From contig JAHFEZ010000006.1 of NCBI GenBank assembly GCA_023248265.1, positions 1 to 36,140 on the forward strand: a stretch of DNA of 36,140 nt, written 5' to 3'. This stretch comes from Deltaproteobacteria bacterium. Lineage in GTDB: Bacteria > Bdellovibrionota > JACOXK01 > 2-02-FULL-40-11. The translations under genes and the position numbers were made by a program. The notes beneath the pieces are model-generated. The model was not told the DNA's origin. It saw only the letters and a program-made list of their open reading frames with translations, and did no database searches. Positions 16,035-31,305 of the stretch are shown piece by piece (position 1 is the first letter of the stretch; every line of letters starts with the position of its first letter).

Positions 16035-17741
16035 ATGGGAAGAATTCGAGTATTCTTTCTCTGTAGTACTCTAGTCATTTTCACCTTCGGGAGTATGCTT
16101 CATGCCAAAAATTCTCAACCACCCTCTCAGCCATTGGGGGCTTATGTTCCAGGGGAAATTCTTGTCAAAGTAAAAGAATCGGCACTTTCCTTTCCTCTGT
16201 TTCAAGAGCAACTGCATCAATTGACGGGAGCCAAAGTGATTCAAAATTTTGAATCTGTCCCTGGGCTTCAGCATCTTTATGTTGGAAAAAGGGATCTCCA
16301 AGAAATGGTGTCGTATTATGAGGCTCAACCCTGGGTGGAGTATGCAGAGCCCAATTTTATTTATACGATTGATCAACCTAAGTTTTCAGAAGAAGCGGGC
16401 CAACTTCCCACTGATCCTCTCTTTTCTCAACTGTGGGGACTTCACAATACAGGACAAAAAGATTCTAAAGGAAATGATGGTTTTCAAGATGCAGATATTG
16501 ATGCTCCTGAAGCCTGGGAGACCACCCAAGGAGATAAGAACGTCCTTGTTGCTGTCATTGATACAGGAATTGACTATACCCATGAGGATTTAGCCGCCAA
16601 TATATGGACCAATCCAGGGGAGATTGCGGACAACAAAATTGATGATGATGGGAATGGTTTCATTGATGACATTCATGGATGGGATTTTTCCAATTCGGAC
16701 AATGATCCCATGGATGATCACAGTCATGGAACGCACGTATCTGGAACGATTGGAGCTATCGGCAATAATGGGAAAGGTGTGATTGGGGTTTCTCCCAATG
16801 TGCGTCTTATGGCCGTCAAATTTTTAGGTGCAGGGGGATCAGGTACTTTGGATGCTGCAGTTTTGGCCATTGGGTATGCAGTCAAAATGAAGGCGCGAAT
16901 TTTAAATAACAGCTGGGGAGGGGGAGGGTATTCTCAGGCTCTTGCCGATGTGATTGAAACAGCCAATAAGAATAATGTCCTATTTGTGGCAGCGGCTGGA
17001 AACGATAGTACAAATAACGATGTTAGCAAACACTATCCTTCAAGCTATGAACATCCCAATGTGGTTGCTGTGGCAGCCACCACCAATCAAGATGCTCTGG
17101 CTAAATTTTCAAACTATGGATTTAAGTCGGTGCATGTGTCTGCTCCAGGGGAAAACATTCTAAGCAGTGTGCCCAACAACGACTATAAAGTGTTTAGTGG
17201 AACTTCCATGGCCACCCCTCATGTGGTTGGAGTTGCAGCTTTATTGCTAGCGGGTGACCCAACCCTTACGCCTACGGCCATTAAAGAAAGGCTCATGAAA
17301 ACTTCGGATGAGATTTTATCTATCCGACGAAGAGTAGCTTCTTCAGGAAGAGTAAATGCCTTCAATGCTGTTCACAATAAAATTCCTCCGAAGAAAAGTC
17401 CTAAAGATCCTGGCAGTTGGATAGAGGGGGCCTATCCACTTTCAACCCCTCATAATTACCCCAACAATGCCAAGGAAACATGGACGGTTCACCAAGAAGG
17501 GGCTACACACCTAAAAATTCATTTTGCTAAATTTGATACAGAAGAAGGCTATGACCAAGTGAAAATTAAGGATAAAACGGGTGCCGTTATTGATCTCTTA
17601 GAAGGGGCTGCAGGAGAAACATGGACATTTATCGTGCTTGGGGATACAGCTACGATTTCTTTTGAATCCGACGATAATGTTGCTAAGTATGGTTTTGACA
17701 TTGATAAATACGCCTATAGCTTAGCCCCACCCGCTCCGTAA
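16035..17741 (+). CDS. Secreted subtilisin-like serine protease (S8) with CUB-like C-terminal domain
   Basis: 568 residues. A signal peptide (~1-24) is followed by a prodomain (~35-113; PGEILVKVKES and VEYAEPNFIY), as in fervidolysin-type subtilases. The S8 catalytic domain has Asp176 (VIDTG), His231 (HSHGTHVSG), the oxyanion Asn near 291 (NNSWGG) and Ser391 (SGTSMATPH). A loop at 203-213 (DDDGNGFIDD) looks like a calcium site. The C-terminal ~110 residues resemble a CUB-like domain (YPLSTPHNYPNN, then FDTEEGYDQVKIKD, then SFESDDN). The enzyme should be exported and self-activated by prodomain removal. AGGAGG lies 6 nt before the ATG. It appears to be a single-gene unit. Confidence 0.95.
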   Translation: MGRIRVFFLCSTLVIFTFGSMLHAKNSQPPSQPLGAYVPGEILVKVKESALSFPLFQEQLHQLTGAKVIQNFESVPGLQHLYVGKRDLQEMVSYYEAQPWVEYAEPNFIYTIDQPKFSEEAGQLPTDPLFSQLWGLHNTGQKDSKGNDGFQDADIDAPEAWETTQGDKNVLVAVIDTGIDYTHEDLAANIWTNPGEIADNKIDDDGNGFIDDIHGWDFSNSDNDPMDDHSHGTHVSGTIGAIGNNGKGVIGVSPNVRLMAVKFLGAGGSGTLDAAVLAIGYAVKMKARILNNSWGGGGYSQALADVIETANKNNVLFVAAAGNDSTNNDVSKHYPSSYEHPNVVAVAATTNQDALAKFSNYGFKSVHVSAPGENILSSVPNNDYKVFSGTSMATPHVVGVAALLLAGDPTLTPTAIKERLMKTSDEILSIRRRVASSGRVNAFNAVHNKIPPKKSPKDPGSWIEGAYPLSTPHNYPNNAKETWTVHQEGATHLKIHFAKFDTEEGYDQVKIKDKTGAVIDLLEGAAGETWTFIVLGDTATISFESDDNVAKYGFDIDKYAYSLAPPAP

Positions 17742-17762
17742 ATGTATTTTTGCATCAGGGAC

Positions 17763-17790
17763 TTGTATTCTTATTCCTCAGGGGTATAAT
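17763..17790 (+). promoter_or_regulatory. Orphan sigma70-type promoter
   Basis: TTGTAT (17763-17768) and a perfect TATAAT (17785-17790) are spaced by 16 nt. No ORF with a ribosome site follows in the next 250 nt on this strand, so transcription from about 17797 would make a non-coding RNA. See the following feature. Confidence 0.5.
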
Positions 17791-17796
17791 TTAATT

Positions 17797-18012
17797 AGGA
17801 CGATGGTAACGGGCTTTTTTCCAGATAGCTTAGCCTGACCCAGCAAATCTTTCTGAGGTCGAGAAAAGGCTAAATATGAGAAAAAAGTCGTCGTTATCTG
17901 AAAGAGCTGATATCTACTTCATCTTGGGAGAGAAACAAACGATGAAGGGCAAAAAAATAATAAAAGTGAAAATACGGTTGTGAAAAACCGCAGAAAGTTT
18001 ATCGGCTTTTTT
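17797..18012 (+). ncRNA. Candidate structured non-coding RNA of unknown class
   Basis: This covers most of the only gene-free stretch over 300 nt (17742-18047). Downstream of a good promoter lies a nested hairpin. CAGATA (17822-17827) pairs with TATCTG (17895-17900). TTAGCCT (17830-17836) pairs with AGGCTAA (17867-17873). GACCCAG (17837-17843) pairs with CTGaGGTC (17853-17860), leaving a 9-nt loop. A further small hairpin, CGGTT/AACCG, lies at 17975-17990. The element GGCTTTTTTCC occurs twice (17812-17822 and 18004-18014), flanking the structure. The long interrupted rod is reminiscent of 6S RNA, but I cannot confirm any family. The features that would identify RNase P, tmRNA or SRP RNA are not apparent. 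Confidence 0.35.
17984..18012. terminator. Weak bidirectional terminator-like hairpin
   Basis: AACCG and CGGcTT can pair around a 12-nt loop. A run of six T follows on the plus strand (18007-18012), and a run of five A (17983-17987) gives a T-run on the minus strand. It could end both the candidate RNA on the plus strand and mltD on the minus strand. The stem is short and has a bulge. Confidence 0.3.
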
Positions 18013-18047
18013 CCCCGCTGCCACCGCCCGTCTTTTTGAACATCCTG

Positions 18048-19160
18048 CTAGCCTTCCTCGGAAACTTCATGTGCTTTGACGGGAATAATGAGTTGTTGGC
18101 CGGGGCGCAAATACGTGCCAGATTTAAGATGATTCATTTCTAAGATGGGCTGAATGCCTATTTTATAAAAGTGAGCAATTTTATAGAGCGTATCTCCAGG
18201 ACGAATTTTATGGGTATGAAAAAGCATCTTTCCTTTAGGCTTAAGCTCAGCATATTTTTCTTCAAAGATTTCTTTTTTTCCAGTAGGAATTCTTAGCATG
18301 TATTCTGTAACATCCGGAGGCGTACACCATCGTAAGAGCTCTGGATTTAGGGCATGTACCTCTTCGTAAGGGGCATCTATGATTTCAGCAACGGTTCTTA
18401 GATCTGTGGGTTCTGTAACGGTGACCGTATCAAATTCAAAGGGCTCTTCATATTCTACATCAGAAAATCCATATTTTTCAGGATTTTTGGCAATCAAAGC
18501 TGCAGCAATGAGTTTGGGAATATATTGTCTGGTTTCAGGCTTCAAATATCGAAAGCGTGCCATTTGCCAAAAGTCTTCTGTATTGTGTCTCAGAATGGCA
18601 TGTTTAATTTTATTTTCTCCAGCGTTATATCCAGCAGCGGCTAAAAGCCACGAATCAAACATATCATAGAGTTCTTTTAAGTATTGAGAAGCTGCTTTGG
18701 TAGATTTGATGGGATCTCGTCTTTCATCCATCCACCAATTAATGTTCAGTCCATAGCGTTTTCCTGTGCCTTGGATAAATTGCCAAGGGCCTGCAGCTTT
18801 GGCTCTGGAATAAGCACGGGTATTAAACCCACTTTCAATCATGGCCATATACACAAGATCTGTGGGTAAATTATTTTCTTTTAAAATTCCTTGCATCACT
18901 GGAATATAGCGTTGAGAGCGTGCCAACCAGCGAACAAAATGAGGACGGTGAGCTGTTTGAAAATAATGAATGAAGTTTTCCACCTGTTTATTGATAACAA
19001 TGGGGATATTAAATTCTGAAGCTTGGCCAGAAAGATAAGACTCTAAAGCTTGTTCTTCTTCAGGAGTGAGCTCTTTTTCTTTGTAATTTCCGGTACTTGC
19101 ACAGCCTATCCATGTCCCAAAAAATAAAAAAAGAGCCATTAATAAATAACGGTTCTTCAT
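18048..19160 (-). CDS. mltD: MltD-like membrane-bound lytic murein transglycosylase
   Basis: 370 residues. A lipoprotein signal peptide ends in WIGC, so Cys20 would be lipidated. The SLT catalytic domain (~75-240) has the catalytic Glu109 in AMIESGFN, then AAGPWQFIQGTGKRYGL and the AAAGYNAGENKI motif. A LysM domain (~315-363; HKIRPGDTLYKIAHFYKIG) binds peptidoglycan. MltD cleaves the glycan backbone to 1,6-anhydromuropeptides at the outer-membrane side of the wall. Only one LysM is present, fewer than in some relatives. The promoter lies 9 nt from the ATG with no Shine-Dalgarno, suggesting a leaderless mRNA. Confidence 0.92.
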   Translation of the reverse strand: MKNRYLLMALFLFFGTWIGCASTGNYKEKELTPEEEQALESYLSGQASEFNIPIVINKQVENFIHYFQTAHRPHFVRWLARSQRYIPVMQGILKENNLPTDLVYMAMIESGFNTRAYSRAKAAGPWQFIQGTGKRYGLNINWWMDERRDPIKSTKAASQYLKELYDMFDSWLLAAAGYNAGENKIKHAILRHNTEDFWQMARFRYLKPETRQYIPKLIAAALIAKNPEKYGFSDVEYEEPFEFDTVTVTEPTDLRTVAEIIDAPYEEVHALNPELLRWCTPPDVTEYMLRIPTGKKEIFEEKYAELKPKGKMLFHTHKIRPGDTLYKIAHFYKIGIQPILEMNHLKSGTYLRPGQQLIIPVKAHEVSEEG

Positions 19161-31230: not shown

Positions 31231-31305
31231 TGGCTGGGGCGGCAGGATTCGAACCTGCGAATGCAAGGTCCAAAGCCTTGTGACTTACCGCTTGTCGACG
31301 CCCCA
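31231..31305 (-). tRNA. tRNA-Gln (anticodon TTG)
   Basis: 75 nt including an encoded CCA. The acceptor stem TGGGGCG pairs with CGCCCCA. The anticodon stem CAAGG/CCTTG encloses loop CTTTGGA, giving anticodon TTG (Gln). The T arm is GCAGG-TTCGAAT-CCTGC. The D arm has GAC/GTC and the AAGCGGTAA loop, typical of glutamine tRNA. It is embedded between spoVG (10 nt upstream) and prs (9 nt downstream), so it is probably cut from the polycistronic mRNA by RNase P and a 3' nuclease. Confidence 0.97.

Follow-up and report, generated by a model that had tools for sequence, protein, structure and literature searches.

A probable standalone structured RNA gene, with a possible triple-strand core, at a convergent gene junction in one family of uncultured bacteria

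Does the gap between two converging genes on contig JAHFEZ010000006.1 encode an RNA and, if so, of what kind? The window, the 36,140-nucleotide stretch of DNA that was analysed, belongs to a genome (G000) of 1.16 Mb that is 61.6% complete, and the stretch studied here, 17742–18047, is the entire gap between a stop codon at 17741 on the plus strand and a stop codon at 18048 on the minus strand. An earlier note, made from the letters alone, described this stretch as a candidate small RNA with a promoter, three nested stems, a T-run and a direct repeat, and likened its rod shape to 6S RNA; the convergent gene setting escaped it. The promoter, with its 16-nt spacer, and the T-run are both present, and the statement that the stretch holds no ORF with a ribosome site agrees with our search, in which no ORF of at least 60 amino acids starts and ends inside 17742–18047. 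The flanking genes and the inferred limits of the transcript are as follows.

16035–17741, plus strand: subtilase with CUB domain (PF00082, PF00431), flanking gene
17763–17768, plus strand: −35-like hexamer TTGTAT (3/6 to TTGACA); hexamer and 16-nt spacing also in G002, not conserved in G004 or G005
17785–17790, plus strand: −10 box TATAAT; identical, 6–7 nt upstream of AGGACG, in four of four genomes
17797–18037, plus strand: inferred transcript of about 240 nt, from the AGGACG start to the end of the T-run; start and end conserved
18033–18037, plus strand: T-run, 3′ end; T-rich run at the equivalent place in all four genomes
18048–19160, minus strand: SLT transglycosylase with LysM, MltD-like (PF01464, PF01476), flanking gene

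Within the window by itself, the promoter does not exceed chance and the predicted fold exceeds it only modestly; it is clearly the relatives that decide. The TTGTAT/TATAAT pair lies below the threshold of the promoter scanner, which found 5 promoter-like sites in 16800–19000 where 4.9 were expected, and a terminator scan returned 2 sites against 2.5 expected, none of them at the end-closing helix P1 described below. The plus strand of 17795–18040 folds with a z-score of −2.58, a value equalled by 3 of 200 shuffles, and the minus strand is weaker against its own shuffles (z −1.64). The elements of three relatives give z-scores of −5.02, −2.51 and −3.31.

The element occupies the identical convergent junction, between a subtilase and an SLT/LysM transglycosylase gene, in G000, in its congener G002 and in two further family members, G004 and G005, with lengths of 203–241 nt; in G004, the TATAAT box immediately abuts the subtilase stop codon. 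A nucleotide search of 97 genomes, G000 included, gave G002 as the sole long match (78% over 280 nt), together with split matches in G004 and G005 that cover just the two ends of the element; the remaining matches are short. A covariance model built from the four carriers (R1) was run against 368 phylum genomes, where the carriers score 207–228 bits, as expected by construction, and the best of the rest, which is without the motifs, scores 26.7 bits. At E ≤0.1 this model matches 38 genomes, of which 4 are real, and among the other 34 the four that were inspected (G206, G138, G204 and G184) are without the element's motif set. Scanning for the 5′ motif in one genome per species yielded 13 loci, 3 of them real (G002, G004 and G005); the 10 others, from other taxa, were rejected by eye, each of them missing at least one of box, A tract and 3′ motif. 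As far as seen, the RNA appears confined to one family of uncultured bacteria and, since it is represented by only four sequences, the statistics are thin. In the outgroup G006, nothing more than a simple GC-rich hairpin separates the genes of the convergent transglycosylase/subtilase pair, and the RNA gene therefore probably arose inside a pre-existing gene junction.

No reading frame is conserved in the element. G002 alone has an ATG-started frame of about 51 codons, which begins at the ATGG that follows AGGACG and traverses the element; in G000, G004 and G005 this frame stops prematurely (by eye). At the end of the subtilase gene, positions 17716–17732 (ATAGCTTAGCCCCACCC) resemble the RNA stretch at 17825–17841 (ATAGCTTAGCCTGACCC) in 15 of 17 bases; the gene end in G002 differs from this G000 version.

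The two ends of the transcript are predicted to be joined by a helix, P1, that the earlier note had overlooked.

17798–17813, plus strand: P1, 5′ strand; covariation
18014–18029, plus strand: P1, 3′ strand; covariation

Across the four genomes, 51 of 52 cells of the 13 P1 pairs are standard pairs, and three double compensatory changes are present, from G-C to A-U in G002 and again in G004, and from G-C to U-A in G005 (counts made on the joined cores, alignment A4). The combined pairing and double-change values are reached by 4 of 500 shuffles, and slid-partner controls show 29–62% pairing and zero double changes. Two G·U pairs within P1, U11-G74 and G3-U82, are possible on the plus strand only, which fits with plus-strand transcription. 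An alternative end pairing, ACGGGC/GCCCGU, was rejected because it is disrupted in G002 and G004, two genomes in which compensation restores P1 (A4, by eye). That P1 joins both ends is, on this comparative evidence, very probable. Compensatory changes in relatives, which the earlier note had named as a check, are found in these three double changes and, taken with the −10 box, start and end conserved in four genomes, they lend the candidate small RNA good support; the stretch is very probably a real standalone structured RNA gene.

Inside P1, the element contains three short tracts and several hairpins.

17814–17821, plus strand: U tract 1, CUUUUUUC; invariant in four of four genomes
17823–17827, plus strand: Px, 5′ strand AGAUA (part of the CAGATA stem); exact partner past the A tract in G000, G004 and G005, not in G002
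17830–17873, plus strand: inner hairpin TTAGCCT..AGGCTAA with GACCC..GGTC; retained in G002, without an alignable counterpart in G004 or G005
17880–17887, plus strand: A tract GAAAAAAG, complementary to both U tracts; present in four of four genomes
17895–17899, plus strand: Px, 3′ strand UAUCU, complement of the Px 5′ strand
17917–17947, plus strand: hairpin CUUCAUC/GAUGAAG; predicted fold, equivalent in G002
17975–17990, plus strand: hairpin CGGUU-GUGAAA-AACCG; predicted fold, CGAUU/GAUCG in G002 with one double change
18006–18013, plus strand: U tract 2, CUUUUUUC; UUUUUUC invariant in four of four genomes, first C in three of four (A in G004)

All three stems of the earlier note are present in the window, with differing reach among the relatives. 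CAGATA/TATCTG (17822–17827/17895–17900) reappears in G004 and G005 with altered partner sequences and is broken in G002, whereas TTAGCCT/AGGCTAA (17830–17836/17867–17873) and GACCCAG/CTGaGGTC (17837–17843/17853–17860), both properly nested, are recognisable inside the genus only. The letters of Px differ among G000, G004 and G005, with a chance of 2–5% per genome as estimated by shuffling, and the two hairpins beyond the Px region are kept within the genus (G000 and G002).

The direct repeat GGCTTTTTTCC reported previously is exact at 17812–17822 and 18004–18014, and between its copies lies an overlooked A6 tract (17881–17886) that is complementary to both. The two U tracts adjoin P1 and face one another, with U tract 2 leading directly into the helix. 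U6, GA6G and U6 are retained in all four genomes even though the interior is poorly alignable outside the genus, where interiors align 0 to 3.5 sd above shuffled sequence. The word GA6G itself occurs in 1–4% of shuffled A-rich interiors, and its first origin is thus unremarkable. Of the helices bordering the U-rich loop, the one on the P1 side is supported and the one on the far side varies, Px being exact in three genomes and another helix preferred in G002; the upper stem UAAGCUU/AAGUUUA of G002 was rejected as the pairing that the flank of U tract 1 adopts in general, since G000 and G005 prefer other folds. With P1 held, and in a folding energy model without base triples, pairing of A6 with U tract 1 beats pairing with U tract 2 by 4–9 kcal/mol in all four genomes, which leaves the invariant U tract 2 without any better role as a strand of an ordinary helix. 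The unconstrained minimum-energy folds of G000 and G005 skip the U1:A6 helix, and folds containing it lie within 1.3 kcal/mol.

We suggest that GA6G pairs with U tract 1 by ordinary base pairs and that U tract 2 most likely occupies the groove, forming a third strand along the U:A helix and parallel to the A tract, an arrangement that satisfies the strand directions. A C+·G-C triple against P1, followed by six U·A-U triples, would then constitute an ENE-like core and would yield a rigid, degradation-resistant rod bearing the variable hairpins. As the U and A tracts are invariant, covariation cannot support the triple strand, and we regard such a core as a real possibility at somewhat less than an even chance.

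The MALAT1 triple helix contains a C+·G-C triple, and in the element, too, each U tract is flanked by a C toward P1 and the A tract contains a G, from which such a triple could form. It also shares with ENE and MALAT1 a stem with facing U tracts and an A-rich tract able to dock, and in the available part of one source the ENE is described as a U-rich internal loop that takes up an A-rich tract (PMC11411715). One U strand of the element runs straight into the closing helix, as in MALAT1, where the same portion of that source has the third strand directly joined to P1 (PMC11411715). The differences are that the ENEs named there are in viral and eukaryotic long RNAs (PMC11411715, available part), whereas the element is bacterial and its triple strand is proposed, and that the A tract of the element is located between the U tracts in the chain rather than at a 3′ end or in a poly(A) tail. 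The literature searched, some of it accessible in part, contains no bacterial ENE-like RNA, which is no proof of absence from print.

Among known RNAs, 6S was the class to which the earlier note had pointed, and the comparison does not bear this out. At gathering thresholds, Rfam returns tRNA only from the whole window, where a tRNA-Gln (anticodon ttg) is located at 31231–31305 on the minus strand. A cmscan of the stretch with E up to 10 and a search of the genome with RF00013 gave no 6S; SNORD50, frnS and mir-320, seen in the stretch at E up to 10, are far below their gathering scores and were dismissed as chance. We also built a 6S covariance model (R2) from 14 6S RNAs of the phylum (alignment A3), of 86 genomes with an RF00013 match; G059, whose locus begins at a contig end, was left out of this alignment. 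On the four element loci, with filters off, R2 gives nothing above 9.9 bits, compared with 113.7 bits for the 6S of G003, and with RF00013 also without a match and the genomic place differing from that of the relatives' 6S, an identity with 6S was rejected. The element does resemble 6S (RF00013) in being a standalone gene and in its rod shape, closed by a helix at the ends and interrupted by an internal bubble, but it differs in its length of 203–241 nt as against about 180, its genomic place, its U6/A6/U6 core and the lack of a model match. tmRNA and RNase P RNA were likewise rejected, as they are found above cut-off elsewhere, the former in G000, G002, G003, G004 and G006 and the latter in G000, G002, G004, G005 and G006. 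No match above cut-off was obtained for RNase P RNA in G003 (best 18.6 bits, C40:1601–1667) or for tmRNA in G005 (best 27.9 bits, C82:2720–2793), both probably reflecting assembly gaps. Hfq (PF17209) was detected in none of seven genomes of the same class (G000 and G002–G007; G000 61.6% and G004 100% complete), and this makes an ordinary Hfq-dependent small RNA less likely. With such RNAs the element shares its own promoter, a terminal U-run and an intergenic gene; it differs in being far more structured, in having no identified seed region and in hosts without detected Hfq. The RNA appears to be a new family, matched by no Rfam 15 model.

A further likeness to 6S is one of distribution: in the element's bacterial family, 6S is detected only in a genome without the element. 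6S RNA is described, in the available part of one source, as present in almost all bacteria (PMC8998176). RF00013 scores above cut-off in 81 of 97 genomes and, within the family, in G003 alone. R2 gives 113.7, 139.7 and 112.8 bits in G003, G006 and G007, respectively, all three being in the model and scoring by construction; the positive controls outside the model, G041 and G058, score 61.2 and 42.6 bits and were both missed by the RF00013 search, a difference that the stricter filters of that search may explain in part. With R2, nothing above 15.1 bits is present in G000, G001, G002, G004 (100% complete) or G005. In G003 and in the outgroups G006 and G007, the 6S gene is located upstream of a response-regulator gene, and this usual place is without 6S in G005 (a 140-base gap), G004 (another gene) and G002 (two ORFs). 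No genome with both RNAs was seen.

Trees group G003 with G005 (97/96 for RpoB, 82/86 for the transglycosylase, 100/99 for five genes joined), which implies that 6S was lost at least twice and the element once. A single clade of element-bearers is rejected with RpoB (p 0.036) and with the five genes (p 0.0077), but not with the transglycosylase alone (p 0.124); these tests were set up after inspection of the RpoB tree, and the p values are indicative. The RpoB tree leaves out the partial G008 and G023 rows and uses the first piece only of G007. The simplest history would be an ancestor with both RNAs, followed by two 6S losses and one element loss. G003, which keeps 6S and is without the element, has no subtilase gene beside its transglycosylase gene, and the loss of the element may be incidental. 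Neither RNA is detected by R1 or R2 in G001 (same genus, 71% complete), and for G024, G042, G071 and G078 (91, 76, 83 and 97% complete) R2 gave no convincing 6S and the nucleotide search no long match with the element, indicating that 6S loss does not require the element. The exclusion within the family is therefore only suggestive, and an overlap of the element with 6S function in global transcription control, proposed from this pattern, seems rather doubtful.

Taken as a whole, the explanation that we favour is of a standalone gene on the plus strand with its own sigma70-type promoter, ending at the U-run and producing a regulatory RNA of about 240 nt, most likely trans-acting, in which P1 would zip the two ends together and the U6 tracts would sit directly on P1. 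Including an ENE-like core and an overlap with 6S, this composite account, drawn from sequence comparison, has in our estimate a little less than an even chance of being right. The main competitor is a standalone RNA of unassigned target that is unrelated to 6S and has no triple strand, where U1:A6 is an ordinary helix and U tract 2 a protein-binding site or spacer. The gene-level evidence for it is identical, ordinary folding accounts for U1:A6, and certain genomes that gave no long match with the element likewise have no detected 6S; by itself, it leaves unexplained the U6CC invariance at both ends and the abutment of both tracts on P1, and we rate it as quite plausible, yet short of probable. 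The same tracts could alternatively act as a switch, with A6 pairing in turn with U tract 1 or U tract 2 to give two folds, attenuator-like or ligand-driven. Constrained folds for both pairings can be obtained in all four genomes, and Px and U1:A6 compete in plain secondary structure, but the energy cost of the U tract 2 pairing in each genome and the absence of a close downstream gene on the same strand to control, the next gene being convergent, make a switch improbable.

Two further readings were weighed. A strongly diverged 6S or other housekeeping RNA would fit the rod, end-closing helix and internal bubble, as well as the failure to detect 6S elsewhere in element-bearing genomes; set against this are the lack of any score with RF00013 or the phylum 6S model even with filters off, the different genomic place and, for tmRNA and RNase P RNA, their detection above cut-off elsewhere in G000, G002 and G004, which refutes both, and we consider such an origin very unlikely. 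Even less credit is due to a mere bidirectional terminator and spacer for the convergent genes, a reading suggested by the position between two converging stop codons and by the simple hairpin at the G006 junction, since it conflicts with a −10 box and start conserved in all four genomes, with a structure of 200–240 nt whose end-to-end helix covaries, and with a terminator scan that stays below expectation and places no site at P1.

Returning to the favoured regulatory RNA, its most far-reaching version, in which an ENE-like RNA arose in one family and took over the work of 6S, which was then lost at least twice independently while a 6S-keeping lineage dropped the new RNA, is in our view unlikely. 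The element offers a testable candidate for what stands in for 6S where it is missing, as an RNA trading places with 6S within one bacterial family. Should the U/A/U core prove to be a triple strand, an RNA-protecting fold of viral and eukaryotic long RNAs would extend to a bacterial RNA. Without either claim, the element represents an RNA family with clear bounds and without a match among the Rfam 15 models.
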